From Methylobacterium organophilum (GTDB lineage: Bacteria; Pseudomonadota; Alphaproteobacteria; Rhizobiales; Beijerinckiaceae): DNA of 64,000 nucleotides. Shown here piece after piece: positions 12,067 through 25,248 of this stretch. The notes under the pieces were generated by a model. The model saw only the letters and a program-made list of their open reading frames with translations, did no database searches and was not told where the DNA came from. Positions within the stretch are counted from its first letter, which is position 1. Each line of letters starts with the position of its first letter. Where the stretch lies: positions 124,001 through 188,000 of the forward strand of contig NZ_BPQV01000003.1 of the NCBI RefSeq assembly GCF_022179465.1, in the 5' to 3' direction. The position numbers and the translations under genes were made by a program.

Positions 12067-12403
12067 CGCTTTCCGTTCCTCCCCGAGCGCGCCCGCGGGC
12101 CCGCTCCTTCAGCGAACCGCCGACCGCGCCGATCGATCCAGACCGATCTTGACCTGAATTTCGTATCTGGTATACCAGATGCCAACACGACGTCGCGATG
12201 CAAGTCGCCGACAGTCGATATCAGGGAGGCGCCGAACGCCATGAACGATCGCGGCATCCTCGACGATCTTGCCGTCAGGTCACGGCCAGTATCCGTGCCA
12301 AGAATCGCGCAGGAGAACTGCGCCTCATCTTGAGTTCCCTTCAGAACGGAGCAGCCGCAGGCAGGTCTCTGCCTGAAACCGATTGAACAGCGTGGGTATC
12401 CCC
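12067..12403. other. Intergenic region before the PAS gene
   Basis: 337 bp between divergent genes (OsmC on the minus strand, PAS protein on the plus strand). It contains the operator-like palindrome at 12165-12185. No gene is visible. Confidence 0.6.
12165..12185. promoter_or_regulatory. Operator-like palindrome, site 1 of the oxalate region
   Basis: A perfect 16-bp palindrome ATCTGGTATACCAGAT (12165-12180). The wider reading CTGGTAT-N5-ATGCCAA (12167-12185) matches the CTGGTAT-N5-ATACCAG site at oxc with two changes in the right arm. It lies between OsmC and the PAS/frc side. TGGTATACCA-type cores are typical of GntR-family (FCD) regulators as I know them; no such regulator is encoded in this window. 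Confidence 0.6.
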
Positions 12404-12862
12404 ATGTCCCAGACAATCGACGCGAACCAACCCGATCTCGCCCAGCTCGTGGCCGCGGCCGGGGATGCGGTGGTGGTCTCGGATGCGGAGGGATTGATCA
12501 CCCTCTGGAATCCGGCCGCCGAGCGGATCTTCGGGTTCTCGCAGGACGAGGCGCTCGGCCGGAACCTCGACCTGATCACGCCGGAGCGTCACCGCCAGCG
12601 GCATTGGCACGGCTACGCCAAGACCATGCAGACCGGCGTGACCCGCTACGGCACGCAGCTCCTGAAGGTCCCGGCGCTCCACAAGGACGGGCGGTCGCTC
12701 TCGATCGCCTTCACCGTCGCGCTGCTGAAGGCGCCCGACGGCACGGTCACCGGCATCGCCGCGATCATCCGCGACGAGACCGAGCGCTGGGAGGAGGAAC
12801 GCCGGCTTCGCCGCCGGGTCGCCGACCTCGAAGCCGAACGTTCGAAGCTCGCCATTGCGTAA
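12404..12862 (+). CDS. Stand-alone PAS-domain protein
   Basis: 152 residues, almost entirely one PAS domain: LAQLVAAAGDAVVVSDAEGLITLWNPAAERIFGF, then the PAC-like IAAIIRDETERWEEERRLRRR and a short coiled-coil tail. There is no kinase, cyclase or HTH output domain, so it must act through a partner. It lies 88 bp before frc on the same strand in the oxalate region, which suggests sensing linked to oxalate or redox state; this is inference. A TTG seven codons upstream (12383) is an alternative start. Confidence 0.8.
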   Translation: MSQTIDANQPDLAQLVAAAGDAVVVSDAEGLITLWNPAAERIFGFSQDEALGRNLDLITPERHRQRHWHGYAKTMQTGVTRYGTQLLKVPALHKDGRSLSIAFTVALLKAPDGTVTGIAAIIRDETERWEEERRLRRRVADLEAERSKLAIA

Positions 12863-12950
12863 CGGCGAATATTGTTAATTTATTTCAAAAATAACACAAT
12901 CACATTAACAAACGATCCGAAACCACAGTTCACTTAGGGAGAAAGCCAAG

Positions 12951-14201
12951 ATGAGCAAGCCTCTCGACGGCATCAAGATCATCGACTTCACGCACGTCCA
13001 GGCCGGCCCCGCCTGCACGCAGCTCCTCGCCTGGTTCGGCGCGGACGTCATCAAGGTCGAGCGCCCCGGCGCCGGCGACGTCACCCGCAACCAGCTGCGC
13101 CACATCGAGGATGCGGACGCCCTCTACTTCACGATGCTGAACTCGAACAAGCGTTCGCTGACGCTGGACACCAAGACCCCCCAGGGCAAGGAAGTCCTCG
13201 AGAAGCTGATCCGCGATTCGGACGTGATGGTCGAGAATTTCGGCCCCGGCGCCCTCGACCGCATGGGCTTCACCTGGGCCCGCATCCAGGAGCTCAACCC
13301 GGGCATGATCCTGGCTTCGGTGAAGGGCTTCTCGGACGGCCACCACTACGAGGACCTGAAGGTCTACGAGAACGTGGCCCAGTGCGCCGGCGGCGCCGCT
13401 TCCACCACCGGCTTCTGGGACGGCCCGCCCACCGTGTCGGCCGCGGCCCTCGGCGACTCGAACACCGGCATGCATCTGGCCATCGGCATCCTCACGGCCC
13501 TGCACGCCAAGAACAAGTCGGGCAAGGGCCAGAAGGTCGCCGTCTCGATGCAGGACTCGGTGATCAACCTCTGCCGCGTGAAGCTGCGCGACCAGCAGCG
13601 CCTCGACGCCGTCGGCTATCTCGAGGAGTACCCGCAGTACCCGCACGGGACCTTCTCGGACGTGGTGCCGCGCGGCGGCAACGCGGGCGGCGGCGGCCAG
13701 CCGGGCTGGGTGCTCAAGTGCAAGGGCTGGCAGACCGACCCGAACGCCTACATCTACTTCACGATCCAGGGCCATGCCTGGGCCCCGATCTGCAAGGCGC
13801 TGAACAAGCCCGAGTGGATCGACGACCCGGCCTACAACACCGCCCGTGCCCGCCAGGACAAGATCTTCGAGATCTTCGCCTTCATCGAGGACTGGCTGGC
13901 CGACAAGACCAAGTTCGAGGCGGTCGACATCCTGCGCAAGTTCGACATCCCCTGCTCGCCGGTCCTCTCCATGAAGGAGATCGCCGCCGATCCGTCGCTG
14001 CGCGCCAGCGGCACCATCGTCGAGGTGCCCCATCCGAAGCTCGGCTCGTACCTGACCGTCGGCAGCCCGATCAAGTTCTCGGACATGCAGGTCGACATCA
14101 AGGCTTCGCCGCTGCTCGGCGAGCACACCGACGAGGTGCTCAAGGACCTCGGCTACACCCCCGAGCAGATCGCCGCGATGCACGAGGCCCGCGCGGTCTG
14201 A
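12951..14201 (+). CDS. frc: Formyl-CoA:oxalate CoA-transferase
   Basis: 416 residues, class III CoA-transferase. The catalytic Asp is D169 in [12 protein letters not shown], the same number as in the Oxalobacter enzyme. The mobile glycine loop [11 protein letters not shown] has GGGG at 246-249, and the N-terminus [24 protein letters not shown] is characteristic. It transfers CoA from formyl-CoA to oxalate, giving oxalyl-CoA and formate. The promoter region (12863-12950) is strikingly AT-rich for this genome, and an AGGGAG Shine-Dalgarno precedes the ATG. Its partner oxc lies 4.5 kb away on the other strand. Confidence 0.96.
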
Positions 14202-14221
14202 CGACCGGACCTCACGAGACG

Positions 14222-14248
14222 GGGATGGGGCGGCCTTCGCCCCATCCC
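14222..14248. other. Hairpin just after frc
   Basis: GGGATGGGG (14222-14230) and CCCCATCCC (14240-14248) form a perfect 9-bp stem. There is no T-run; it probably protects the frc message or causes pausing. Confidence 0.55.
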
Positions 14249-14334
14249 GGACCAGTCCATTCCGTTCCTTTCCTCCGCTCTCCCCCGGGAGGTCGTTTCG
14301 GCGGTACGCCGCCGACGCGGTCTCGCGTGTCACT

Positions 14335-14366
14335 CCGGGCCGATTCGTTCGGCCCGGTTTCTTTTT
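14335..14366 (+). terminator. Intrinsic terminator of frc
   Basis: CCGGGCCGA (14335-14343), loop TTCGT, TCGGCCCGG (14349-14357), followed by TTTCTTTTT. A strong terminator 134 bp after the frc stop. Confidence 0.9.
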
Positions 14367-14445
14367 GGGGCCTCGAGCCGTAGGGACCGAACGACGGGAA
14401 GCGCGGCCGCTCCGCCGCCTCATCCAGCCCCGAGGGAGTTCGCCG

Positions 14446-15666
14446 GTGCCGTCATCGCGCCTGAGCCGCCTCCTGCCCCAGCAGGCCCCGGTCAGCCTGC
14501 GCGAGCGCGTCCGCGCCGCCTGCGGCGCCCTGCTCGGCCTGCTCGTCACGGGGCTCGTCTCCCGCGCCGCCCTCGGTTCCGGCGCCGAATTCCCCGTCAT
14601 GGTCGCGCCGATGGGCGCCTCGGCCGTGCTGCTCTTCGCCGTTCCGGCAAGCCCGCTGGCCCAGCCCTGGTCGATCCTCGGCGGAAACCTCATCGCCGCC
14701 CTGGTCGGCGTGACGGTCGCCGCCCATGTCCCCGACCCGCTGGCCGCCGCCGCGATCGCCGGCGGGGGCGCGATCGGCCTGATGCTCGCGCTGCGCTGCC
14801 TGCATCCGCCGAGCGGCGCGGTGGCGCTCACCGCCGTGCTCGGCGGCCCGGCGATCCACGATCTCGGCTACGGCTTCGTGTTCTGGCCCCTGGGCGTGAA
14901 CACGCTGCTGCTGCTCGCCTCGGCGGTCCTGTTCAACACCCTCACCGGCCGGACCTATCCGCACGGGGCGAGCATCGCGCCGGCCGCGCCCCAGCCCCCC
15001 GGCCGCGCGGGCCTCGCCGCGAGCGACATCGACGCGGCGCTGAAGGATTTCGACCAGGTCCTCGACATCGACCGCGGCGACCTCGAGGCGATCCTGCAGC
15101 GCGCCCAGCTCAGGGCCCTGCTGCGCCGCTCCGGGCCGGCGACCTGCGCCTCCCTGCTGACGCGGGACGTCGTCGCCATCGCCCCCGACACGCCCCTGCG
15201 GGAGGCGCTCCAGCTCCTGCGCCGCCACCACATCAAGATGCTGCCGGTGACGGACGAGAGCGCGCGGGTGCTCGGCGTGCTCACCCAGACCGACCTCATG
15301 GACAAGGCGGAGTGGCACCGGAAGGGGCCCCGGCTCGGGCTGGCCCGCCGCCTCCGGCTCACCGTCGGGCGGGGCCGCGCCCCCCATGGCTGCGCGGCCG
15401 ACGTGATGACCACCTCGGTCGAGTCCCTGAAGCCGGAGATGGCCCTCGCCGAGGTCGCCGTGCGGATGGCGCAGGGGCCGCACCATCACCTGCCCGTGGT
15501 CGGGCCGGAGGGCCGCCTCCTCGGGGTGGTCTCCCAGACCGACCTGATCGCCACGCTGGTCGCCGAGGCGGCCACCCGCGGCACCTCCCCCCTGGCCGAG
15601 GCCGCGCCGAACCGCGCAAGGGGGGCGGAGGGCGGCCTCCTCGATCTCGCCGCCGGGGCGGGGTAG
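14446..15666 (+). CDS. HPP-family membrane protein with tandem CBS domains
   Basis: 406 residues. The N-terminal half has about four transmembrane segments of the HPP family, including the name-giving motif in LRCLHPPSGAVALTAVLGG. The C-terminal half carries two CBS motifs (LTRDVVAIAPDTPLREAL and MTTSVESLKPEMALAEVAV), which usually bind adenine nucleotides. HPP proteins are integral membrane proteins, some linked to nitrite or anion transport. A GTG start is chosen because GAGGGAG lies 7 bases upstream; the frame is open further upstream but runs into the frc terminator. It is enclosed by oxalate genes, but no direct link is shown. Confidence 0.85.
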   Translation: MPSSRLSRLLPQQAPVSLRERVRAACGALLGLLVTGLVSRAALGSGAEFPVMVAPMGASAVLLFAVPASPLAQPWSILGGNLIAALVGVTVAAHVPDPLAAAAIAGGGAIGLMLALRCLHPPSGAVALTAVLGGPAIHDLGYGFVFWPLGVNTLLLLASAVLFNTLTGRTYPHGASIAPAAPQPPGRAGLAASDIDAALKDFDQVLDIDRGDLEAILQRAQLRALLRRSGPATCASLLTRDVVAIAPDTPLREALQLLRRHHIKMLPVTDESARVLGVLTQTDLMDKAEWHRKGPRLGLARRLRLTVGRGRAPHGCAADVMTTSVESLKPEMALAEVAVRMAQGPHHHLPVVGPEGRLLGVVSQTDLIATLVAEAATRGTSPLAEAAPNRARGAEGGLLDLAAGAG

Positions 15667-15759
15667 CCGGCCTGCCCGGACCGGGCCGGCGCGCAAGAGG
15701 GCCGCTTACGAAGCGTTAACCATGCGCGCCGACAATCCCGCGACACCAGCAGGGATGCC

Positions 15760-17916
15760 ATGGCGCGCGGTTCGAAGCTCAGCAGGATGGCGTCCGGGAA
15801 GGCGCCCTCCCTCGGCAGGCTTCTCAGATCGGCCACCGAGCACCTCGCCGCCGATCGCGTGTCGGAGGCGGAACAGGACTATGCGCGCATTCTCGCGCAG
15901 GAGCCGGCGAACGCCGCCGCCCGTTACGGCCTCGGCCTGGCGGCGATGCGGCGCGGCGACCCCACGCAGGCCGTGCCCCTCTTCGTGGAGGCGCTCCGCC
16001 TCCAGCCGCAGCAGGCGGTGCATTGGACGGCGCTCGCGACGGCGCTGCTCGCCTCCGACCGGCTGACCGAAGCGCGGGCAATCCTCGACAAGTTCCGGAG
16101 CTGGGGCTTCGACGCCGCCACCATCCGACAACAGATCGCGCCCCTCGCCCGGACGCTGCTCGACCACGCCGCAACCCTGGTGCAACAGGGCCGACCGGCC
16201 GAGGCGGAGACGCGGGTCGATCTCGTCATCGCCCTCGACGACAAGAACGCGGCCGCCATCCATCTGGCCGGCGTGATCGCGTCCCGGACGGAGCGGCCGG
16301 ACCAGGCCTGCACCCTGTTCGAGCTCGCGGCGACGCTCGAGACGGACAACGCCACCTACCAGAGGGACCTCGGGGAGGCGCTCCTCGACTGCGGCCGGAA
16401 GGGGGCCGCCCTGCGCGCCTTCGAGCGTGTCGTCGAGCTCGACCCGTCCCAGGCCGATGCCTATGCCCGGCTGGCCGATCTCAACCGCCAGAGGGGGCAC
16501 CTGCAAGCGGCCCTGCGGGCGAATACGGCGCTCCTCGGGCTCCAGCCCGACGCGCCCTACGCCCGGAACAACCACGGCGTCCTCCTGCAGCAGCTCGGCC
16601 GCCCGGCCGAAGCCCTCGCTCTGCTCGAAGAGGCGGTGGCGCGCGATCCCGGCGATGCCATCAGCTACAGCAACCTGGTCCAGGCCGCGCTCTTCACCAG
16701 CCCGGCCCGCGCCCTGCAGATCGCCGCCGAATTCGGCCTCCGCTACGCCGGGCTTTCGGAGGCCGCGCGGCACTTCGCCAACGATCCCACGCCGGACCGC
16801 CCCCTGAAGGTCGGCTTCGTTTCGGGCGACCTGCGCGAGCACCCCGTGTCGCGCTTCATCGAACCCTTCCTGCAGCACCACGACCGCGGGCGGATCGAGG
16901 CCTTCGCCTACTTCACCGGGGAGGCGGACGCGACCACCGGGCGCCTGAAGCCGCTCTTCGAGGGCTGGCGCGAGATCGCCACCCTCGACGACGATCTCGC
17001 CGCGAGCCTCATCCAGGCGGACGGCATCGACATCCTGGTCGACCTCGCCAGCCACAGCGCGGATCACCGCCTGCTCCTGTTCGCGCGCAAGCCGGCGCCG
17101 GTGCAGGTGACCTGGATCGGGCTTCCCCTCACGACGGGGCTCGCCGCGATCGACTACCGGCTGACCGACCCCCTCTACGACCCGGAGGGCAGCGAGGATC
17201 CGCTCTATGCGGAGACGCTCTGGCGGCTGCCGGGCGTGTCCTATTGCTACTGGCCGGACCGGACCGCCCCGGAGCCCGCCGAACAGGCCCCCTTCCAGGC
17301 GAACGGGTTCATCACCTTCGGCTGCCTGAACCGCTTCGAGAAGGTGAGCCCGGAGACGCTGGCGGTCTGGTCGGACCTGCTCCGCGCGGTCCCGGATTCG
17401 CGGCTGCTCCTCATCGTCACGGACCCGGAGGATCCGGACACGCAGACGGAGATCGGGCGCCGGCTGACGGAAGCCGGGATCGATCCGCAGCGGGTCGCCT
17501 GCGTGCCCCGCTCGGGCACGGAGAAATACGCCCTGCATGGGCAGGTCGACATCGCGCTCGACCCCTTCCCCTTCAACGGCGGCACCACGAGCTACGACAC
17601 GCTCCATATGGGCGTGCCCTATGTCGCCCTCAGAGGCGGCCAGACCCTCTCGCGGATGGGCGCGGCGGTGCTCGCCGGGGCCGGCCTGCACGCGCTCGTC
17701 GCCGAGACGACCGCGGACTACGTCGCCATCGCCGCCGGCCTGGCCGGCGATCCCGCCCGTCTGCTCGACCTCCGCCGCGGCCTGCGCGACAGGCTGCGCG
17801 CGAGCCCGCACATGGACCATGTCCGTCATGCGCGGGAGGTCGAAGCGGCCTTCGCGGGGATGTGGCGCCGCTGGTGCGCGGCCCAGGCCGGAGAGGCCGC
17901 CGCGGCCACCGCCTGA
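15760..17916 (+). CDS. TPR protein with O-GlcNAc-transferase-like (GT41) domain
   Basis: 718 residues. Residues 20-330 are TPR repeats (for example AAARYGLGLAAMRRGD and PYARNNHGVLLQQLGRP). From about 350 the GT41/SPINDLY catalytic region follows: LKVGFVSGDLREHPVSRFIEP, VTWIGLPLTTGLAAIDYRLTDP, FGCLNRFEKVSPETLAVW and DIALDPFPFNGGTTSYDTLHMG. These are the UDP-sugar-binding blocks of protein O-GlcNAc transferases. In bacteria such proteins glycosylate cytosolic or adhesin proteins or flagellin. There is no adhesin or flagellar gene beside it, so the acceptor is unknown. An ATG at 15787 is an alternative start. Confidence 0.9.
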   Translation: MARGSKLSRMASGKAPSLGRLLRSATEHLAADRVSEAEQDYARILAQEPANAAARYGLGLAAMRRGDPTQAVPLFVEALRLQPQQAVHWTALATALLASDRLTEARAILDKFRSWGFDAATIRQQIAPLARTLLDHAATLVQQGRPAEAETRVDLVIALDDKNAAAIHLAGVIASRTERPDQACTLFELAATLETDNATYQRDLGEALLDCGRKGAALRAFERVVELDPSQADAYARLADLNRQRGHLQAALRANTALLGLQPDAPYARNNHGVLLQQLGRPAEALALLEEAVARDPGDAISYSNLVQAALFTSPARALQIAAEFGLRYAGLSEAARHFANDPTPDRPLKVGFVSGDLREHPVSRFIEPFLQHHDRGRIEAFAYFTGEADATTGRLKPLFEGWREIATLDDDLAASLIQADGIDILVDLASHSADHRLLLFARKPAPVQVTWIGLPLTTGLAAIDYRLTDPLYDPEGSEDPLYAETLWRLPGVSYCYWPDRTAPEPAEQAPFQANGFITFGCLNRFEKVSPETLAVWSDLLRAVPDSRLLLIVTDPEDPDTQTEIGRRLTEAGIDPQRVACVPRSGTEKYALHGQVDIALDPFPFNGGTTSYDTLHMGVPYVALRGGQTLSRMGAAVLAGAGLHALVAETTADYVAIAAGLAGDPARLLDLRRGLRDRLRASPHMDHVRHAREVEAAFAGMWRRWCAAQAGEAAAATA

Positions 17917-17944
17917 GGGACGGCGCGCCGCGCGGGGATCGGGC

Positions 17945-18661
17945 CTACGCGTCGAACAGGAACGCGACCGCCCGTTCCACCACCGCCGGATCGTAGGCGT
18001 GCGGGCCGTCATACTCGACATATGTCAGGTCGTAGCCCGCCGCCTCCAGCAGGCGGGCATGGCGCCGGCCGCTGCGGTCGATCGGGATCTGCTCGTCGCG
18101 GGTGCCGTGCGAGAGGAAGATGCGCGGGGCGCCCGCCTGCACCTGGACGGTGAGGAAGCCCGCCGACGAGACGATCATGTGCGAGACCCGGTCGCCATTG
18201 GCGAGCCCGAGAGAGAGGGTGTAGCTGCCCCCGTCCGAATGCCCGGCGAAGGCGAAGCGGGCGGGATCGAGCAGGAAGCGGTCGGCGACCGCGGCGAGCG
18301 CCGTGTCGAGACGCTCCCGGTCCGGCCCGTTGCCGGCGATCACGAGGTCCCAGGTCGGGAACAGCGATTGCGGGGCGAGCAGCAGGAAGCCGCGCGCCTC
18401 GGCGTGCCGCTCCAGCATCGGCAGGATCTTCTGCGCGCTGCCGCCGCCGCCATGGAACAGCGTCACCAGGGGCGTGGGCCGGCGCGGATCGATGCCGGCG
18501 GGGACGACCAGCACGGCGTCGCGCTCGGGGAACAGGCCGAGGTCGTGGCGCCCGGGGGGCAGGGGCGGCTGCGAAGGCAGCCGGTGCCGGAAATCCAGGC
18601 GCCCGGCGAGATGGGGATCGATCGGAGAGGCGGCCGGCGGCGCGGCCTGAGTCGCGGTCAT
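17945..18661 (-). CDS. Alpha/beta hydrolase, PHB-depolymerase/esterase-like
   Basis: 238 residues. An HGGGG oxyanion-hole block lies in VTLFHGGGGSAQKIL. The nucleophile elbow is GHSDGGS, the acid region is SHGTRDEQIPID, and the His lies in YDGPHAYDPAVV. This places it among phospholipase/carboxylesterase or depolymerase-like hydrolases. There is no signal peptide, so it is cytoplasmic. The start is the ATG preceded by GAGG; further upstream the frame enters the oxc terminator. Confidence 0.82.
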   Translation of the reverse strand: MTATQAAPPAASPIDPHLAGRLDFRHRLPSQPPLPPGRHDLGLFPERDAVLVVPAGIDPRRPTPLVTLFHGGGGSAQKILPMLERHAEARGFLLLAPQSLFPTWDLVIAGNGPDRERLDTALAAVADRFLLDPARFAFAGHSDGGSYTLSLGLANGDRVSHMIVSSAGFLTVQVQAGAPRIFLSHGTRDEQIPIDRSGRRHARLLEAAGYDLTYVEYDGPHAYDPAVVERAVAFLFDA

Positions 18662-18685
18662 GAGAGCCTCGTCGCGAAGGGGAAC

Positions 18686-18723
18686 AACGAAAGGACCGCG
18701 ATGCGGCTGGCGCATCGCGGTCC
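18686..18723 (-). terminator. Terminator of oxc
   Basis: A perfect 13-bp stem (arms 18693-18705 and 18711-18723) with a 5-base loop. Read on the minus strand it is followed by TTTCGTT, fitting termination of oxc. Confidence 0.8.
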
Positions 18724-18758
18724 CTCGGCGTTTCAGTGCGGGGGACGCAGCCGCCCGA

Positions 18759-20510
18759 TCACTTCTTCTTCAGGGTGCTCTGCGGGTTGAGGCTGCCGAT
18801 ATTGCCGCTCTCGCTGCCCGCAGCCGGATCGATCACCGCGTTGATGAGGGTCGGCTTGCCGGAATCCATCGCCGCGTCGACGGCGCGCTTCAGCTCGTCC
18901 GGCGTGGTGACGTTCACGCCGACGCCGCCGAAGGCCTCCATCATCTTGTCGTAGCGGGAATCCTTCACGAACACCGTGGTGCCCGGGTCGCGCCCGGTCG
19001 GGTCGATGTCGGTGCCGCGATAGATGCCGTTGTTGTTGAAGATCACGATGCAGACCGGCAGGTCGTAGCGGCAGATCGTCTCCACCTCCATGCCGGAGAA
19101 GCCGAAGGCCGAGTCGCCCTCGACCGCCAGCACCGGCTTGCCGGTCTCGACGGCGGCGGCGACGGCGAAGCCCATGCCGATGCCCATCACGCCCCAGGTG
19201 CCGACATCCAGGCGCTTGCGCGGCTGGTACATGTCGATGATGCCGCGGGCGAGGTCGAGGGTGTTGGCGCCCTCGTTGACGAGGATCGCGTCCGGCCGCT
19301 CCTTGATGACGGTGCGCAGCGCGCCGAGGGCCGAGTGGAAGCACATCGGCGACGTGTTCTTCATCAGCTTCGGCGCCATCTTGGCGATGTTGGCCTCCTT
19401 CTTGGAGCGGATCGTCTCGATCCAGTCCGCGGGCGGGGCCTTCCAGTCCTTGCGCAGGCCGTCGAGCAGCGCCTCGACGCAGGAGCCGATATCGCCGACG
19501 AGCGGGGCGGCGATCTCGACGTTCGAGTCCATCTCACGGGGCTCGATGTCGATCTGGATGAAGCGCTTGGAGCCCGGCTCGCCCCAGGTCTTGCCCTTGC
19601 CGTGCGAGAGCAGCCAGTTGAGGCGGGCGCCGACCAGCACCACCACGTCGGAATCCTTGAGCGCGGTCGAGCGGGCGGCGCCGGCCGAGAGCGGGTGGGT
19701 GTCGGGCAGCAGGCCCTTGGCCATGCTCATCGGCACGTAGGGGATGCCGCTCTCCTCGACGAGGGCGCGAACGGCCTCGTCGGCCTGGGCATAGGCCGCG
19801 CCCTTGCCGAGCACGATGAGCGGACGCTTGGCCGACTTCAGCAGATCGAGGGCGCGGGCGACGGAGGCCGGGGCCGGGATCTGGGCCGGGGCCGGGTCGA
19901 TCACCTTGACCAGGGACTTCGCGCCGAGATGGCCGTCGATGACCTGCGAGAACAGCTTGGCGGGCAGATCCAGGTAGACGCCGCCGGGCCGGCCGGACAC
20001 CGCGGCGCGGATCGCGCGGGCGACGCCGATCCCGATATCCTCGGCGTGCAGCACGCGGAAGGCAGCCTTGCAGAGCGGCTTGGCGATGGCGAGCTGGTCC
20101 ATCTCCTCGTAGTCGCCCTGCTGCAGGTCGACGATCTCACGCTCCGAGGAGCCGGAGATCAGGATCATCGGGAAGCAGTTGGTGGTGGCGTTGGCGAGCG
20201 CGGTGAGGCCGTTGAGGAAGCCCGGCGCCGAGACGGTGAGGCAGATGCCCGGCTTCTTGGTGAGGAAGCCGGCGATCGCCGCCGCGTTGCCCGCGTTCTG
20301 CTCGTGGCGGAAGGAGATGACCCGCAGACCCTCGGCCTGGGCCAGACGGCCGAGATCGGTGATCGGGATGCCGGGCACGTTGTAGATCGTCTCGATGCCG
20401 TTGAGCTTCAGCGCGTCGATGACGAGGTGGAAGCCGTCGGTGAGCTCGGTCTCCTGGTGCGGCACGGCCCCGGCCGTGATCGCATCGATGTTTTGGGCGA
20501 TGGCGGTCAT
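18759..20510 (-). CDS. oxc: Oxalyl-CoA decarboxylase
   Basis: 583 residues, a thiamine-diphosphate enzyme. The N-terminal domain holds the catalytic Glu in [14 protein letters not shown]. The middle domain follows, and the C-terminal ThDP motif begins at [11 protein letters not shown] and ends in FNNNGIYRG (GDS-N27-N type). It decarboxylates oxalyl-CoA to formyl-CoA, which Frc reuses, making a catalytic cycle that turns oxalate into formate and CO2. The start is the ATG preceded by GGGAGGAC; upstream the frame reads through the promoter and operator region. The gene has its own operator-like site 183 bp upstream and a strong terminator. Confidence 0.96.
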
Positions 20511-20692
20511 GTCTGCTGTCCTCCCAGGATATCGTTCGCGAATGGCCTTCGCGAGTTCGGGTCTTCGTCGGAGCCCGGCCCGGTGGCGTTCGGCCTCGGG
20601 TCCCGTTCGTCTCGGTTCCCGCGGCGCCCTCGGCGTTCGTTGAGGCGGGATGCCCGGCGGCGACCGGCGCGTCGGCCGATCGATTTGCATGT

Positions 20693-20711
20693 CTGGTATA
20701 CCAAATACCAG
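20693..20711. promoter_or_regulatory. Operator-like inverted repeat, site 2 (oxc)
   Basis: CTGGTAT-ACCAA-ATACCAG: perfect 7-bp arms with a 5-base spacer, 183 bp upstream of the oxc ATG. The core TGGTATACCA is shared with site 1 and the GGTAT-N5-ATACC arms with site 3. Confidence 0.65.
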
Positions 20712-20818
20712 AGAGAGGGTCAACGCGCGAGACGACGGCGAAGCTCGAAAGACGCCTTCACGTTCACGCGTGCGCCTCGCCCACGATTCGTCCTCCCGGA
20801 CGCCTCCGCAAGGACGTT

Positions 20819-20849
20819 GACGCGCCGCGGGTCGGGCCCGCGGCGCGTC
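20819..20849. other. 13-bp hairpin downstream of oxlT
   Basis: GACGCGCCGCGGG (20819-20831), 5-base loop, and its exact complement (20837-20849), 35 bp after the oxlT stop. There is no T-run on either side, so it is a stabilising or attenuating 3' hairpin. Confidence 0.6.
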
Positions 20850-20884
20850 GAGGATGGCCCGTCAGAGGGGCCTCGGGACGGCGC

Positions 20885-22174
20885 TCAATGCGCCGTGACG
20901 GGGGTCGGGCTCAGGGCCACGGGCGGCTTGGTGTAGGCGGCCCGCATCGGCTTGAGGACGAAGATCGCCATGAACGCGGCGATGATGTTGAGCGCCGCCG
21001 CCGCCAGGAACACGGCGTGCCAGCTGCCGGTCATGACCGTCAGCACGCTGGTATAGGGGACGATGAGCGCCGCGGTGCCCTTGGCGGTGTAGAGCAGGCC
21101 CGCATTCGTGGCGGCGTACTTCGAGCCGAAGGTGTCGCCGCAGGTCGCCGGGAAGAGGGAGTAGATCTCGCCCCAGGCGAAGAACACGAGGCCGGTCAGG
21201 ATCACGAAGGCGAAGGGATCCTGGCCGAACTGGCTCAGCAGATAGATGCCCACGCCCTCGATGGCGAAGGAGAGGAACATCGTGTTCTCGCGGCCGATAT
21301 GGTCGGAGACCCAGCCGAAGAAGGGCCGCGTGACGCCGTTGAGAACCCGGTCGATCGTCGCCGCGAAGGTCAGCGCCGGCAGGGTGATGCCGAGCAGGCT
21401 CACCGGGGTGTCGGCGATGTGGAAGTCCTTCGCGATCGGGCCGAGCTGCGCGGTCGCCATCAGGCCGCCGGCGGCCATCATCACGAACATCGCGTACATC
21501 ACCCAGAAGATCGGGGTGCGCACCATCTCGCCGGGGGTGTAGTCGCGCTTGCTCTGGCTGACCTTGGCGACGTCCGGAACCTGGCCCTTCTTCGGGGCGA
21601 CGAGGAACAGGGCGAGCAGCATCACGATGAGGCCCTGGCCGATGCCGAAGTAGAAGAAGGCCGACTCGTAGCCGTAGTTCTTGATCATCGCCTGGATCGG
21701 CACGACGGTGAGCGCCGAGCCCGCGCCGAAGCCCATGGCCGTGATGCCGGCGGCGAGGCCACGGCGATCCGGGAACCACTTCAGCGAGTTGCCGACGCAG
21801 GTGCCGTAGACCGCGCCCGCGCCCGTCCCGCCGATCGCGGCGGCGACGTAGAGCAGGAAGAGCGAGTCGGCATAGGAGTTCATCACCCAGGCGATGCCGC
21901 AGAGGGCGCCGCCGATCAGGGTGACGATGCGCGGGCCGTACTTGTCGACGAACCAGCCCTCGATCGGCACGAGCCAGGTCTCGGTGACGACGAACATCGT
22001 GAAGGCGATCTGGATGGCGGCACGGTCCCAGCCGTGACGCTCCTGCATCGGGTTCACGAAGAAGGTCCAGCCGTATTGCATGTTGGCGATCATGCACATG
22101 CAGATCACGCCGAATACCAATTGCAGCCAGCGGTTCGTCGGCGCTGGGCTTCCTGCTGTGACAGAGCTTGTCAT
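20885..22174 (-). CDS. oxlT: Oxalate/formate antiporter (MFS)
   Basis: 429 residues with twelve predicted transmembrane segments of the major facilitator superfamily. Two charged residues that make the substrate site in Oxalobacter OxlT (Arg272, Lys355) have counterparts by context: R283 in NGVTRPFFGWVSDHIGRE and K365 in LLYTAKGTAALIV. Loop motifs WFVDKYGPR and LKWFPDRRGLAAG fit the family. It would import oxalate against formate. A good Shine-Dalgarno (AGGAG) precedes the ATG. It lies immediately upstream of oxc on the same strand, but separate hairpins and an operator suggest separate transcripts. Confidence 0.92.
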   Translation of the reverse strand: MTSSVTAGSPAPTNRWLQLVFGVICMCMIANMQYGWTFFVNPMQERHGWDRAAIQIAFTMFVVTETWLVPIEGWFVDKYGPRIVTLIGGALCGIAWVMNSYADSLFLLYVAAAIGGTGAGAVYGTCVGNSLKWFPDRRGLAAGITAMGFGAGSALTVVPIQAMIKNYGYESAFFYFGIGQGLIVMLLALFLVAPKKGQVPDVAKVSQSKRDYTPGEMVRTPIFWVMYAMFVMMAAGGLMATAQLGPIAKDFHIADTPVSLLGITLPALTFAATIDRVLNGVTRPFFGWVSDHIGRENTMFLSFAIEGVGIYLLSQFGQDPFAFVILTGLVFFAWGEIYSLFPATCGDTFGSKYAATNAGLLYTAKGTAALIVPYTSVLTVMTGSWHAVFLAAAALNIIAAFMAIFVLKPMRAAYTKPPVALSPTPVTAH

Positions 22175-22590
22175 GAGCGTTTCTCCTGAGGATTTGGATC
22201 GACTGTTTGATTTTTTGTTTTGTGATTTTTGTTGAGCGAAACCGCCCGCGCTTTTCTGGAATTATCCTTCAAAGAATTCACATGGCTGAAATAATCGGCC
22301 GGCGCATGACGCCTGTCCGATGGGTAATATCCGGAAAAGGGTCGTCAAGTTGTCGGAAGCCGGTTCAACAACCGGTCCGATGAGGAAGACGGGCGAACAT
22401 CCGTCGCCATGTGCCCTGCGCCGGCACGGAACCTCCTCTCCACCCGCAATTGGCCGATGGACGAATCGTGCAAACCACTTGCCCGACACCGGCACCATAA
22501 TTCATAATGCAGAATTGACAATAGGTATTTTGTATACCACCGTGGACAACAAGAAAGCTTCCCTCGACGGAGGCAGAACGGAGGAACGCC
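22175..22590. other. Divergent oxlT/CBS intergenic region
   Basis: 416 bp, unusually AT-rich at both ends. Visible structures are a CCGGTT-CAAC-AACCGG hairpin at 22360-22375 and the third operator-like site at 22524-22538. No gene is visible. Confidence 0.6.
22524..22538. promoter_or_regulatory. Operator-like inverted repeat, site 3 (oxlT/CBS)
   Basis: GGTAT-TTTGT-ATACC, 5-bp arms with the same 5-base spacing as site 2, 52 bp before the CBS gene and on the oxlT side of the divergent region. Confidence 0.55.
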
Positions 22591-23004
22591 ATGGAGACGA
22601 TGCGAGGCGCCACGGGCGAGATGCGGGCGGTGCCGCGGATCCAGGCCGATCGCTCCGTGGAGGAGGCGGCCCAGCTCCTCACGCGCAGCGGCAGCAGCGC
22701 CGTCGTGGTGGTCGAAGGCAGCGGCGACGACGCCGCGATCCTCGGTCTCCTGACCGAGCGCGACATCTTCCGCGCCGTCGCGGCCGAGGGCCCCGACATC
22801 TACAACGGCTGCGTCTGGCGCATCACCCGGCACGATTATGCATCGCTCGATATCCGCTCCTCCGACGAGGACCGGGTGCGGATGTTCTGCGAGCGCCAGG
22901 TCGACCACATCGCCCTGGTCGACGGCCTGCGCCTCGACTCGGTGCTGAGCCTCTGGGACTGCGCCCGCGACGTATGCGCGGCCTCCCACGGGGCGGGGCG
23001 GTGA
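22591..23004 (+). CDS. CBS-domain protein
   Basis: 137 residues. One CBS motif is clear: PRIQADRSVEEAAQLLTRSGSSAVVVVEG then ILGLLTERDIFRAV. The second half (DEDRVRMFCERQVDHIALVDGLRLDSVLSLWD) looks like a degenerate second CBS. It is probably a small nucleotide-sensing regulator. Divergent from oxlT and sharing an operator-like site with it, it is a candidate accessory of oxalate metabolism; this is inference. Confidence 0.75.
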   Translation: METMRGATGEMRAVPRIQADRSVEEAAQLLTRSGSSAVVVVEGSGDDAAILGLLTERDIFRAVAAEGPDIYNGCVWRITRHDYASLDIRSSDEDRVRMFCERQVDHIALVDGLRLDSVLSLWDCARDVCAASHGAGR

Positions 23005-23114: not shown

Positions 23115-23411
23115 ATGAGCGCCGTCGAAGTGAAATATCTGACCGTCGTCGAATGCCCGGTGATCTTCCCGGGCGAGAACGAATACGCCATGTCGAGCTT
23201 CGACATGCTGCCCCGCCTCGGTATCACCCGCGGCCTTGAGAGCCGTCACGTGAAGGTTCTCGACAACCGCATCGTGATGGTCTGCATCTGGAAGAGCTCG
23301 TTCTGCGCGCGGCTCTTCTTCGATGCGGCCTGGACCGAGAAGGCGGCCGTGCTCTGGCCCGACACCTACCAGTTCCGTCTGGAGCCGATCGAGAACGCCT
23401 CGGCGGCCTGA
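23115..23411 (+). CDS. Unrecognised 98-residue protein
   Basis: 98 residues starting MSAVEVKYLTVVECPVIFPG and ending DTYQFRLEPIENASAA. Alternating beta-strand/helix patterns (VKYLTVVEC, RIVMVCIWKSS, QFRLEPIE) resemble a small ferredoxin-like alpha/beta fold, but I do not recognise a family. It has three Cys, no signal and no membrane segment. It follows the CBS gene by 110 bp and precedes the P-loop gene by 25 bp on the same strand, so the three may form one unit. Confidence 0.65.
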   Translation: MSAVEVKYLTVVECPVIFPGENEYAMSSFDMLPRLGITRGLESRHVKVLDNRIVMVCIWKSSFCARLFFDAAWTEKAAVLWPDTYQFRLEPIENASAA

Positions 23412-23436
23412 GGCGAGACGAGGGGCGGCAGACGGC

Positions 23437-25248
23437 ATGAGCAGCGGCCCCGCCCTCGCCGCCCCGAAGGCGGCCGTGCCCGATGCCTGGAATCCCGGGC
23501 TGGTCCCCGGGATCCCCCGCGCCTTCCTGCCGCTGGCGACGGTGTTCCGGCCGGAAAACGTCGAGACCACCCTGAGCGAGACCTTCGAGCTCAGCGATGC
23601 CTGCGGGCTGCCGGCGACGCAGCTCGCCCTGTTTCGTCCCGAGCGCCTCGTCGTGCACGAGGTGCTGATCCGGGTGATGGCCGATCTCTCGGTTCCGGTG
23701 GGCGAGGTCTATGCGGATCTCGGCCTGAACTTCCGGCGCATGGTCGCGACGATCCTGAGCGAGGGCATCGCGGCGCAGATGCCCGCCCTCCTCAAGCTCC
23801 TCGCCGCGATCCGGGACGAGGCGGCAGCCCTCCTCGAACGCGAGCTCGCCGAGCTCCTCGACGCGCCGGCCGAGCCGGAAGCCGCCGAGGCGCCGGAGCC
23901 CGAGGCGCTGCCCTGGTACCGCCGGCTCGGGAAGCGGCGGCCTCCGGTCGAGCCGTCCCCGCCGCCGGCCCGGCGGGAGCCGGGGGATCTCCTGCGCCGC
24001 CTCGAAGCCCGGCGCGCGGAGGCGGCTCCGGGGAGCCTGGAGGAGGCCGCCCGCGACGCGCTCCACCGCGTCCTGTCGAGCGTGCTCGCCCGCCACGGCT
24101 GCCTGATCCACGACCGGGCGCTCCTCTGCCGGATCGCCGGGATCCTGGTCTCGAACGACCATGGCAGCCGGCGGATCGGCCTCGCGCTGGAGCCCGCCTT
24201 CGATGCGGCCGCATCCCGCGCCGGCTACCGGCGGCTCGCGGCCCAGAAGCATCCCGTGGTGATGACGGTGAAGGGCGCCTCCGCCTCGGGCAAGAGCACG
24301 ATCCGCCCCTATCAGCGCGACCTCGTCGAGCGCGGCGGCCAGAGCTGGTGCGACTTCGCGGTGATCACCCCCGACGTCTGGCGGAAATACCTGCTCGACT
24401 ACATGAGCCTGGGCGCGGCGCGGCTCTATGCCGGGCCGCTGACTGGCCACGAGGTCGAGATCGTCGATGCCAAGCTCGACCGGCACGTGGCGCGCAAGGC
24501 CGCGGAGGGCCGGATCTCGCATCTGCTGATCGACCGTTTCCGCTTCGACAGCTTCTCCGCCGATCCGGCCGCGGAGGGCGGCGGCCAGCTGCTCAGCCGG
24601 TTCGGCCAGCAGGTCTATCTGCAATTTATGGTGACGCCGCCGGAGGCGACGGTGGAGCGCGCCTGGAAGCGCGGCCAGGAATTCGGCCGCTACAAGGCCG
24701 TCGAAGACCTGCTCGCGCACAATGTCGAAGCCTATACCGGCATGCCGCGCCTGTTCTTCAACTGGGCCCTGCGGCGCGACAAGGCGGTGTTCTTCGAGTT
24801 CCTCGACAACGGCGTGCCGAAGGGGACCCGGCCGCGCACCATCGCCTTCGGCACCAACAACGCGATGGTGATCCTCGACGCGGCGGGGCTGATCGACATC
24901 GAGCGCTTCCGCAAGATCGACATCCACGCCCGCTGCCCGGGCGACGTCTACGGGAACGTCGATTCGGCGCCGGAGCGGAATGCCGGCTTCCTGAGGGATT
25001 GCCTGCGCCGGCTGCCGCGCGTCTGCTTCGCCGAGGCCGCCACGGGTCAGGTCTTCGCCCGCTACGAGCGGGGCCGCCTCGCCGGCATCGACCGCGAGAC
25101 CCTGGCGCGGGTCTGCACCGATCCGGCCACCTGCGCCGCCCTCGCGGCAGCCGGGCTCCCGGCGGCGGCGGAACGGGCCGCCCCGATTCGCGAGGCGCTG
25201 CCCCGGCCCGATCCCGCGACTCTGGGAGCCTGGAGCCTACGCGTCTGA
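23437..25248 (+). CDS. Large P-loop protein of unknown function
   Basis: 603 residues. The N-terminal 140 residues are helical, followed by a Pro/Glu-rich linker (about 142-185) and a second helical part. A Walker A motif GASASGKST lies at 280-288 within [18 protein letters not shown], and a hydrophobic-Asp strand [13 protein letters not shown] (361-373) may act as the second nucleotide-site element. The layout recalls zeta-toxin/AAA_33-type kinases, but I cannot name a family. The start is the ATG after a GAGG-rich stretch; further upstream the frame overlaps the preceding gene. The last 12 bp overlap the end of rlmE on the opposite strand. Confidence 0.8.

Follow-up and report, generated by a model that had tools for sequence, protein, structure and literature searches.

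A predicted operator and a candidate FCD-type GntR regulator linking scattered oxalate genes in Methylobacterium organophilum

Oxalate is common in plants and soil, and leaf-dwelling methylotrophs live with it. The window analysed here, a 64,000-bp stretch of the Methylobacterium organophilum genome (G000:C3:124001-188000; the own genome, G000, comprises 5.06 Mb in 113 contigs), carries the oxalate genes frc, oxc and oxlT together with genes for a PAS-domain and a CBS-domain protein, and three copies of the motif GGTAT-N5-ATRCC lie in the regions upstream of them. These sites, here called A, B and C, are very probably operators, as predicted from sequence, of one FCD-type (probably VanR-group) GntR regulator whose gene stands beside a second frc gene (frc2) at C1:114050-114730. 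The locus contains the following features:

12149..12154, plus strand: TTGACC, a -35-like hexamer found by direct reading, 15 bp before site A and directed towards PAS/frc
12167..12185, no strand: predicted operator site A, CTGGTATACCAGATGCCAA, reading CTGGTAT-ACCAG-ATGCCAA, with its 15-bp core at 12169-12183
12404..12862, plus strand: PAS-domain protein (Pfam PAS), the first sizeable gene after site A
12951..14201, plus strand: frc (frc1), formyl-CoA transferase (TIGR03253, 723.2 bits, cut-off 504.2)
18759..20510, minus strand: oxc, oxalyl-CoA decarboxylase (TIGR03254, 1021.7 bits, cut-off 739.4), its start picked by reading
20693..20711, no strand: predicted operator site B, CTGGTATACCAAATACCAG, reading CTGGTAT-ACCAA-ATACCAG, with its 15-bp core at 20695-20709, ~185 bp before the oxc start
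20885..22174, minus strand: oxlT, oxalate/formate antiporter (TIGR04259, 704.7 bits, cut-off 335)
22515..22520, plus strand: TTGACA, a -35-like hexamer 3 bp before site C and directed towards the CBS gene
22524..22538, no strand: predicted operator site C, GGTATTTTGTATACC, reading GGTAT-TTTGT-ATACC, upstream of both neighbours, at 52 bp from the CBS gene and 349 bp from oxlT
22591..23004, plus strand: small CBS-domain protein (Pfam CBS), starting 52 bp after site C

Direct reading confirmed the coordinates that the original prediction had given for all three sites and the five-base spacing between their halves; the motif lies nowhere else in the window, and the observation of GGTAT-N5-ATRCC is correct for this stretch. 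Exact GGTATN5ATRCC gives five oriented matches in the window, all at sites A–C, where 0.04 would be expected, and none of 100 shuffles reached this count. The palindrome TGGTATACCA occurs twice (0 expected), and a longer palindrome, ATCTGGTATACCAGAT, can also be read at the 12169 site, which has an extra half-site, CGTAT, on its left. When the patterns were run over the whole genome TGGTATACCA was found four times, three of them at oxalate genes. Exact GGTATN5ATACC occurs at five places (oxc, oxlT/CBS, C1:112342, C9:104713 and a G+C-rich one on C11), as does exact TGGYATN5ATRCCA (C1:112341, C1:113834, PAS/frc, oxc and C7:273023), four of the latter being at oxalate genes; allowing one mismatch in TGGYATN5ATRCCA adds 15 more places, including site C and the C9 site. 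The looser GGYATN5ATRCC matches 43 places and by itself is unspecific. A longest-frame measure, applied to 42 of these 43 (C19:34606 was left out), failed to separate the oxalate sites because they too lie under long overlapping frames.

The oxalate sites were separated from the other GGYATN5ATRCC places by a symmetric matrix built from 85 distinct sites of other species. The matrix was run over 267,634 bases picked by nearby pattern or FCD-gene matches and over four further stretches, and of the 20 TGGYATN5ATRCCA places C5:219739 and C11:100955 were left out of the scoring. Its training set consisted of exact pattern matches upstream of the tested genes only, so that the scores favour such sites. 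Within the 267,634 bases the top six distinct places (32.6 to 23.8) are all beside oxalate genes: site B before oxc (32.6, the top score of the scan), C1:112342 (31.2), the gap between frc2 and the regulator gene (28.8), site A before PAS/frc (28.2, rank 4), the C9 site before a second oxlT (26.8; that gene scores 645.3 bits with TIGR04259) and, below a shifted left half of the PAS site (24.2), site C between oxlT and the CBS gene (23.8; row 7, distinct place 6). When the window was shuffled locally 20 times, the highest scores obtained were 17.8 and 16.4. The original prediction had named occurrence at many unrelated places as a point against it. Strong non-oxalate sites are few, not nil, namely C7:273024 (22.8), C5:221845 (22.7), C2:554264 (21.3, in one of the added stretches) and C5:349070 (19.4), all of which score below the oxalate sites, with the remainder at 14.2 or less.

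The palindrome TGGTATACCA alone was rejected as the operator since it is too narrow: nine of the 71 exact 15-mers before gntR homologues of relatives lack the inner palindrome TGGYATRCCA, and seven inner palindromes stand outside an exact 15-mer, all seven keeping the outer half that ends in ACC. A copy of TGGTATACCA at C8:127126 scored below 5, the cut-off for listing, in a matrix scan that included its stretch (L038), and was taken as chance. A family-wide search for TGGYATACCA was uninformative, with a match in 118 of 149 genomes and a reversed control that was about equally frequent in many of them. The predicted operator is best described, on the sequences compared, as a 15-bp inverted repeat, GGYAT-N5-ATRCC, one half of which is usually common to an overlapping 10-bp palindrome, TGGTATRCCA. 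The site at C5:221845 (TCTGGTGTATGGCATACCAGA, L014:1501) lies ~160 bp before the gamma gene of an NAD formate dehydrogenase in the own genome. NAD formate dehydrogenase is the enzyme that would burn formate from oxalate. As a regulon member it was tried and rejected, the site being absent from relatives' loci (0/29, and 0/8 for nearer relatives); in this negative control none of the 29 relatives' loci scored above 3. A panE2-like homologue (C15, 50% identical) likewise has no site in its 3.95-kb stretch, where the best score was -2.1.

The candidate regulator, P0001 (G000:C1:114050-114730, 227 amino acids), is one of seven FCD proteins of the own genome and is encoded on a different contig from the window, divergent from frc2 (TIGR03253, 697.6 bits); the gap between frc2 and this gntR gene carries CTGGCATACCAGATGCCAG and the far side of frc2 carries TTTGGTATCTGGTATACCAAT. 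It matches the FCD domain (PF07729) with 90.2 bits (cut-off 24.3), and its best NCBIfam match, PhnR_burk (TIGR03338), stays at 119.4 bits, below the cut-off of 271.5. An AlphaFold model of the M. thiocyanatum orthologue (predicted local distance difference test score, pLDDT, 86; predicted template modelling score, pTM, 0.79) places helices at residues 15-28, 43-50 and 54-66 and strands at 70-73 and 77-80, and so predicts a GntR-type winged helix-turn-helix at the N terminus. In FCD domains six helices are the rule for the VanR group and seven for the FadR group; the model has helices at 85-109, 112-116, 118-121, 130-151, 155-176, 181-197 and 201-222, and the choice between six and seven hinges on taking 112-121 as one helix. 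The best PDB fold matches, nearly full length, include PmiR, a Brucella GntR protein, Atu1419, TM0439 and AlkR. Among 82 homologous sequences the recognition helix SRTPxREA is kept, and so are the letters N141 (81 of 82) and H145, H189 and H211 (82 of 82), in the order N-x3-H...H...H, from which a metal site of three His and one Asn is predicted. Three His with Asn or Asp are described as the FCD metal site in PMC7797058, and a carboxylate of the oxalate pathway may be held there.

The comparison with relatives drew on 594 confirmed oxc stretches, of which the best 80, largely from Hyphomicrobiales, were used. In 58 of these 80 loci the gene immediately upstream of oxc, in the same orientation, is a gntR homologue; in seven the homologue is divergent from oxc, in seven it stands elsewhere in the stretch and in eight none was seen in the stretch. 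Readable upstream regions (300 bp upstream and 30 bp into the gene) were available for 81 gntR homologues in 72 loci. GGYAT-Nk-ATRCC with k=5 occurs in 45 of the 81 (71 sites), while the 15 other spacings (k=0-4 and 6-15) together yield one site and the same pattern with its halves reversed yields two in all. Within 350 bp upstream, a site is present for gntR in 50/82 cases, for the CBS gene in 8/10, for PAS in 11/18 and for oxlT in 23/56, and for oxc in 10/92, frc2 in 6/73 and frc1 in 0/22 (these counts include the window and the own-genome stretch L016, and separate tblastn pieces are counted apart). For the last three genes low figures are to be expected wherever the gene comes after gntR, oxc or PAS in the same orientation. 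A stretch of ~16 kb in M. thiocyanatum (L102) contains gntR, frc2, CBS/oxlT, a second oxlT, oxc and PAS/frc, and a site is near each. Across the 80 loci 157 of 213 matrix hits scoring at least 20 fall within the 8.6% of bases upstream of the searched genes, an enrichment that is partly built in because the training sites came from there; by position, the remaining 56 are mostly beyond frc or oxlT. One such hit comes from Bradyrhizobium L145, where it lies ahead of a CBS gene (Pfam CBS) with a gene for a reductase of the ApbA/PanE type after it; the 15-mer of this hit is letter-identical to site C, and TTGACAAT precedes both. The CBS gene of the window is a probable member of the regulon.

The original prediction had called for conservation of the sites upstream of frc, oxc and oxlT orthologues. 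Within the genus they are conserved at gntR and oxc, with matrix scores of at least 22 at all 30 gntR loci and at 29 of the 30 for oxc (the exception, L193, scores 9.0) among the best 30 listed of each, a sample that includes the own genome and may include species that gave training sites. With a threshold of E <= 1e-40, 94 of 112 genus genomes carry the regulator; oxc is counted as present in 92 (90 over the cut-off and two, G181 and G251, in fragments). All 92 genomes with oxc have the regulator, against two of the 20 lacking it (Fisher p 7e-19, shared ancestry not corrected). These two are G220 (85% complete) and G227, and near the regulator gene no site was found in either (best score 8.6 in G220, where only ~550 bp of upstream sequence is on the contig, and 6.5 in G227). 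By sequence comparison, then, many Hyphomicrobiales have kept the putative operator, the candidate regulator and the oxalate genes as a set. The single GntR/FCD regulator encoded elsewhere that the original prediction had postulated gains support from the FCD-GntR gene beside frc2, which has two high-scoring sites around that frc, and from homologues that stand before oxc, many of them with the same site. Binding by a different FCD protein of this genome is quite improbable: there are six others to choose from, and some loci have two homologues (e.g. Ancylobacter L117, L127, L134 and L168), one with a site upstream and one without, yet the C1 protein, on which the examination centred, has adjoining sites, homologues beside oxc with the site and co-occurrence with oxc. 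It is hardly credible that the sites are chance or promoter sequence only, that is, part of a -35/-10 pattern read by no regulator; they do lie in promoter regions next to TTGAC, but they form a twofold-symmetric repeat with one spacing only, are conserved before different genes with variable inner bases, and were not found beside the regulator in the two genomes that lack oxc.

The placement of the sites bears on how the regulator might act. Across the 80 loci there are 57 instances, against 0.09 expected, of TTGACA followed by a site after a gap of 2-4 bp; the window has one. The usual gap between -35 and -10 is 16-18 bp, and with such a spacer an operator at this distance from TTGACA would fill the promoter spacer. 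The order TTGACA-N3-site seen at site C recurs before the CBS gene in L102, L104 and L105 and before a CBS gene in Bradyrhizobium L145, and in relatives most PAS sites have TTGAC ahead of them at a distance of 7 or 14-15 bp. We infer that TTGACA is the -35 element and that binding blocks the polymerase. Many Bradyrhizobium loci have two sites ~80 bp apart before gntR, the first of which is followed by TTGTCAA, a -35-like sequence facing away; such pairs perhaps represent two divergent promoters, each with its own operator.

Several observations weigh against repression by this one regulator at all of the sites. At neither site A nor site B did a strict sigma-70 scan detect a promoter. The exact site is missing from 36 of the 81 gntR upstream regions (12 of these 36 keep GTATRCCA/TGGYATAC, where 0.5 would be expected), and in 16 of the 80 loci the stretch examined contains no exact 15-mer and no TGGYATRCCA, several of these loci carrying close variants such as TGGAATAATGTATACCAG. 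Among the loci without a site are L115, L119, L135, L176 and L177 (Xanthobacter, Aquabacter and one Rhizobiales metagenome-assembled genome), which have the same recognition helix. The genomes lacking oxc may represent few lineages, in which case the co-occurrence would not amount to 112 independent events. Finally, the strict scan at site C found a TTGTCA-TATGGT pair directed towards oxlT and adjoining the site, so that the direction of control is least certain at oxlT; here the site abuts a -35-like hexamer, a placement that could suit activation.

The same regulator might bind the same sites as an activator, or repress at some sites and activate at others, but we regard this as unlikely. 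Site C, just upstream of the -35-like TTGTCA facing oxlT, speaks for activation, but activators rarely sit downstream of -35, which is where the 57 sites that follow TTGACA on the same strand would put the operator. Among proteins of this kind GlcC, of the FadR subfamily of GntR proteins, is described as an activator (PMC11323563), whereas Atu1419, with a comparable placement, is a repressor (PMC7797058), and so is NanR, whose binding is described as lying downstream of the polymerase site (PMC8012715).

The regulator is most likely a repressor that is relieved by a metabolite of the oxalate pathway, as judged from the placement and conservation of its predicted sites. A regulator dimer (or dimer of dimers) would bind the site just after the -35 of the target promoters and, once bound, would block RNA polymerase; a carboxylate of the pathway (oxalate itself or one of its products, for instance oxalyl-CoA or glyoxylate) would release it by occupying the FCD metal site. 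The regulon would consist of frc1 with the PAS gene, oxc, the CBS gene with oxlT, the second oxlT, frc2, the regulator's own gene and a small open reading frame or two. A more specific form of this proposal, which we put forward tentatively, is a Hyphomicrobiales oxalate regulon in which the FCD regulator would sense oxalate directly, through its chelation of the bound metal, and would read a two-register operator, where two dimers or a tetramer might lock one promoter or loop two of them, as at the paired sites ~80 bp apart in Bradyrhizobium; the two registers would be the 10-bp even palindrome and the 15-bp odd inverted repeat, which have a half-site in common.

Each of the nearest known systems resembles the candidate in part. 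UxuR and ExuR of E. coli, whose operator core we take to be TGGTATACCA, control sugar-acid genes; the candidate differs in scoring about 28 bits with their profiles (27.8 against 442 and 27.6 against 396, both below cut-off). PmiR of Pseudomonas aeruginosa (7xp0/7xp1) is both the best sequence match (E 1.7e-16) and the best Foldseek match, although identity is 27%. Atu1419, a VanR-group FCD repressor of Agrobacterium fabrum, has the same FCD fold and a metal site of three His with Asn/Asp, two operators in one promoter region, and a short operator, ATGTATACAT, that has GTATAC in common with TGGTATACCA. It differs in its hydroxycinnamate/vanillate target genes and in its identity of 23-25% to the candidate, and the operator proposed here has a third half-site, at 7 bp, that completes a 15-bp inverted repeat. 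PMC7797058 places the Atu1419 operators over the -10 or between -10 and -35 and reports that the tetrameric protein loops DNA between two sites. NanR, the sialic-acid repressor of E. coli, is an FCD-type GntR protein with the half-site GGTATA; it differs in reading direct repeats and in binding cooperatively through an N-terminal extension (PMC8012715). The operator proposed here is inverted with a spacing of 5 and lacks three direct GGTATA repeats, and the sequence match to NanR is weak (E 3e-5).

The enzymes of oxalate degradation are already known. In the accessible portions of the open-licence PMC literature (including PMC8012715, PMC7486775, PMC11323563, PMC5996035 and PMC7797058) no regulator is named for these genes in these bacteria and no link to the 10-mer is visible. 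The kind of regulator is known and the proposed operator is typical of its family; the regulon itself is apparently undescribed, and comparative sequence evidence argues strongly for it. Candidate protein and operator together provide a testable regulon that would unite genes scattered over the chromosome, suggest unannotated members (the CBS protein, small open reading frames and a second antiporter) and might offer an oxalate-inducible switch for Methylobacterium genetics.

Further observations concern the surroundings of the sites. In L115, L119, L135, L176 and L177, where the regulator stands before oxc and there is no exact site, a common ACAGTATTTCAC element lies near the start of the regulator gene and may be a diverged operator. 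On C1 a 62-amino-acid open reading frame without a Pfam match (L016:5102-5287, minus strand) lies directly beyond the operator at C1:112342, and short proteins with DALADLVEAFG..SEAELQ are found at the same place in L102 (2884) and L104 (~2700), where the tblastn similarity is weak (E 0.22). The element ATCTGGTATTTTGTACTTCATATYCC at L016:4730 (matrix score 8.9), before a hydrophobic 53-amino-acid open reading frame (from ~4811, plus strand), is kept in L102, L104 and L105 and is perhaps a degenerate operator. After frc the window encodes an HPP-family membrane protein with two CBS domains (14365-15663), and L102 encodes a similar one between its oxc and frc genes. An open frame at 23323-25245 of the window has a weak Zeta_toxin match under the cut-off, and the same weak match is seen beside the CBS gene at L102:3464-5353. 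In Bradyrhizobium L145 tripartite tricarboxylate transporter genes (TctC, TctA) follow frc at 13936-17050, with operator-like sites at ~13.2 and 13.6 kb near them, and these genes possibly encode another oxalate uptake system.

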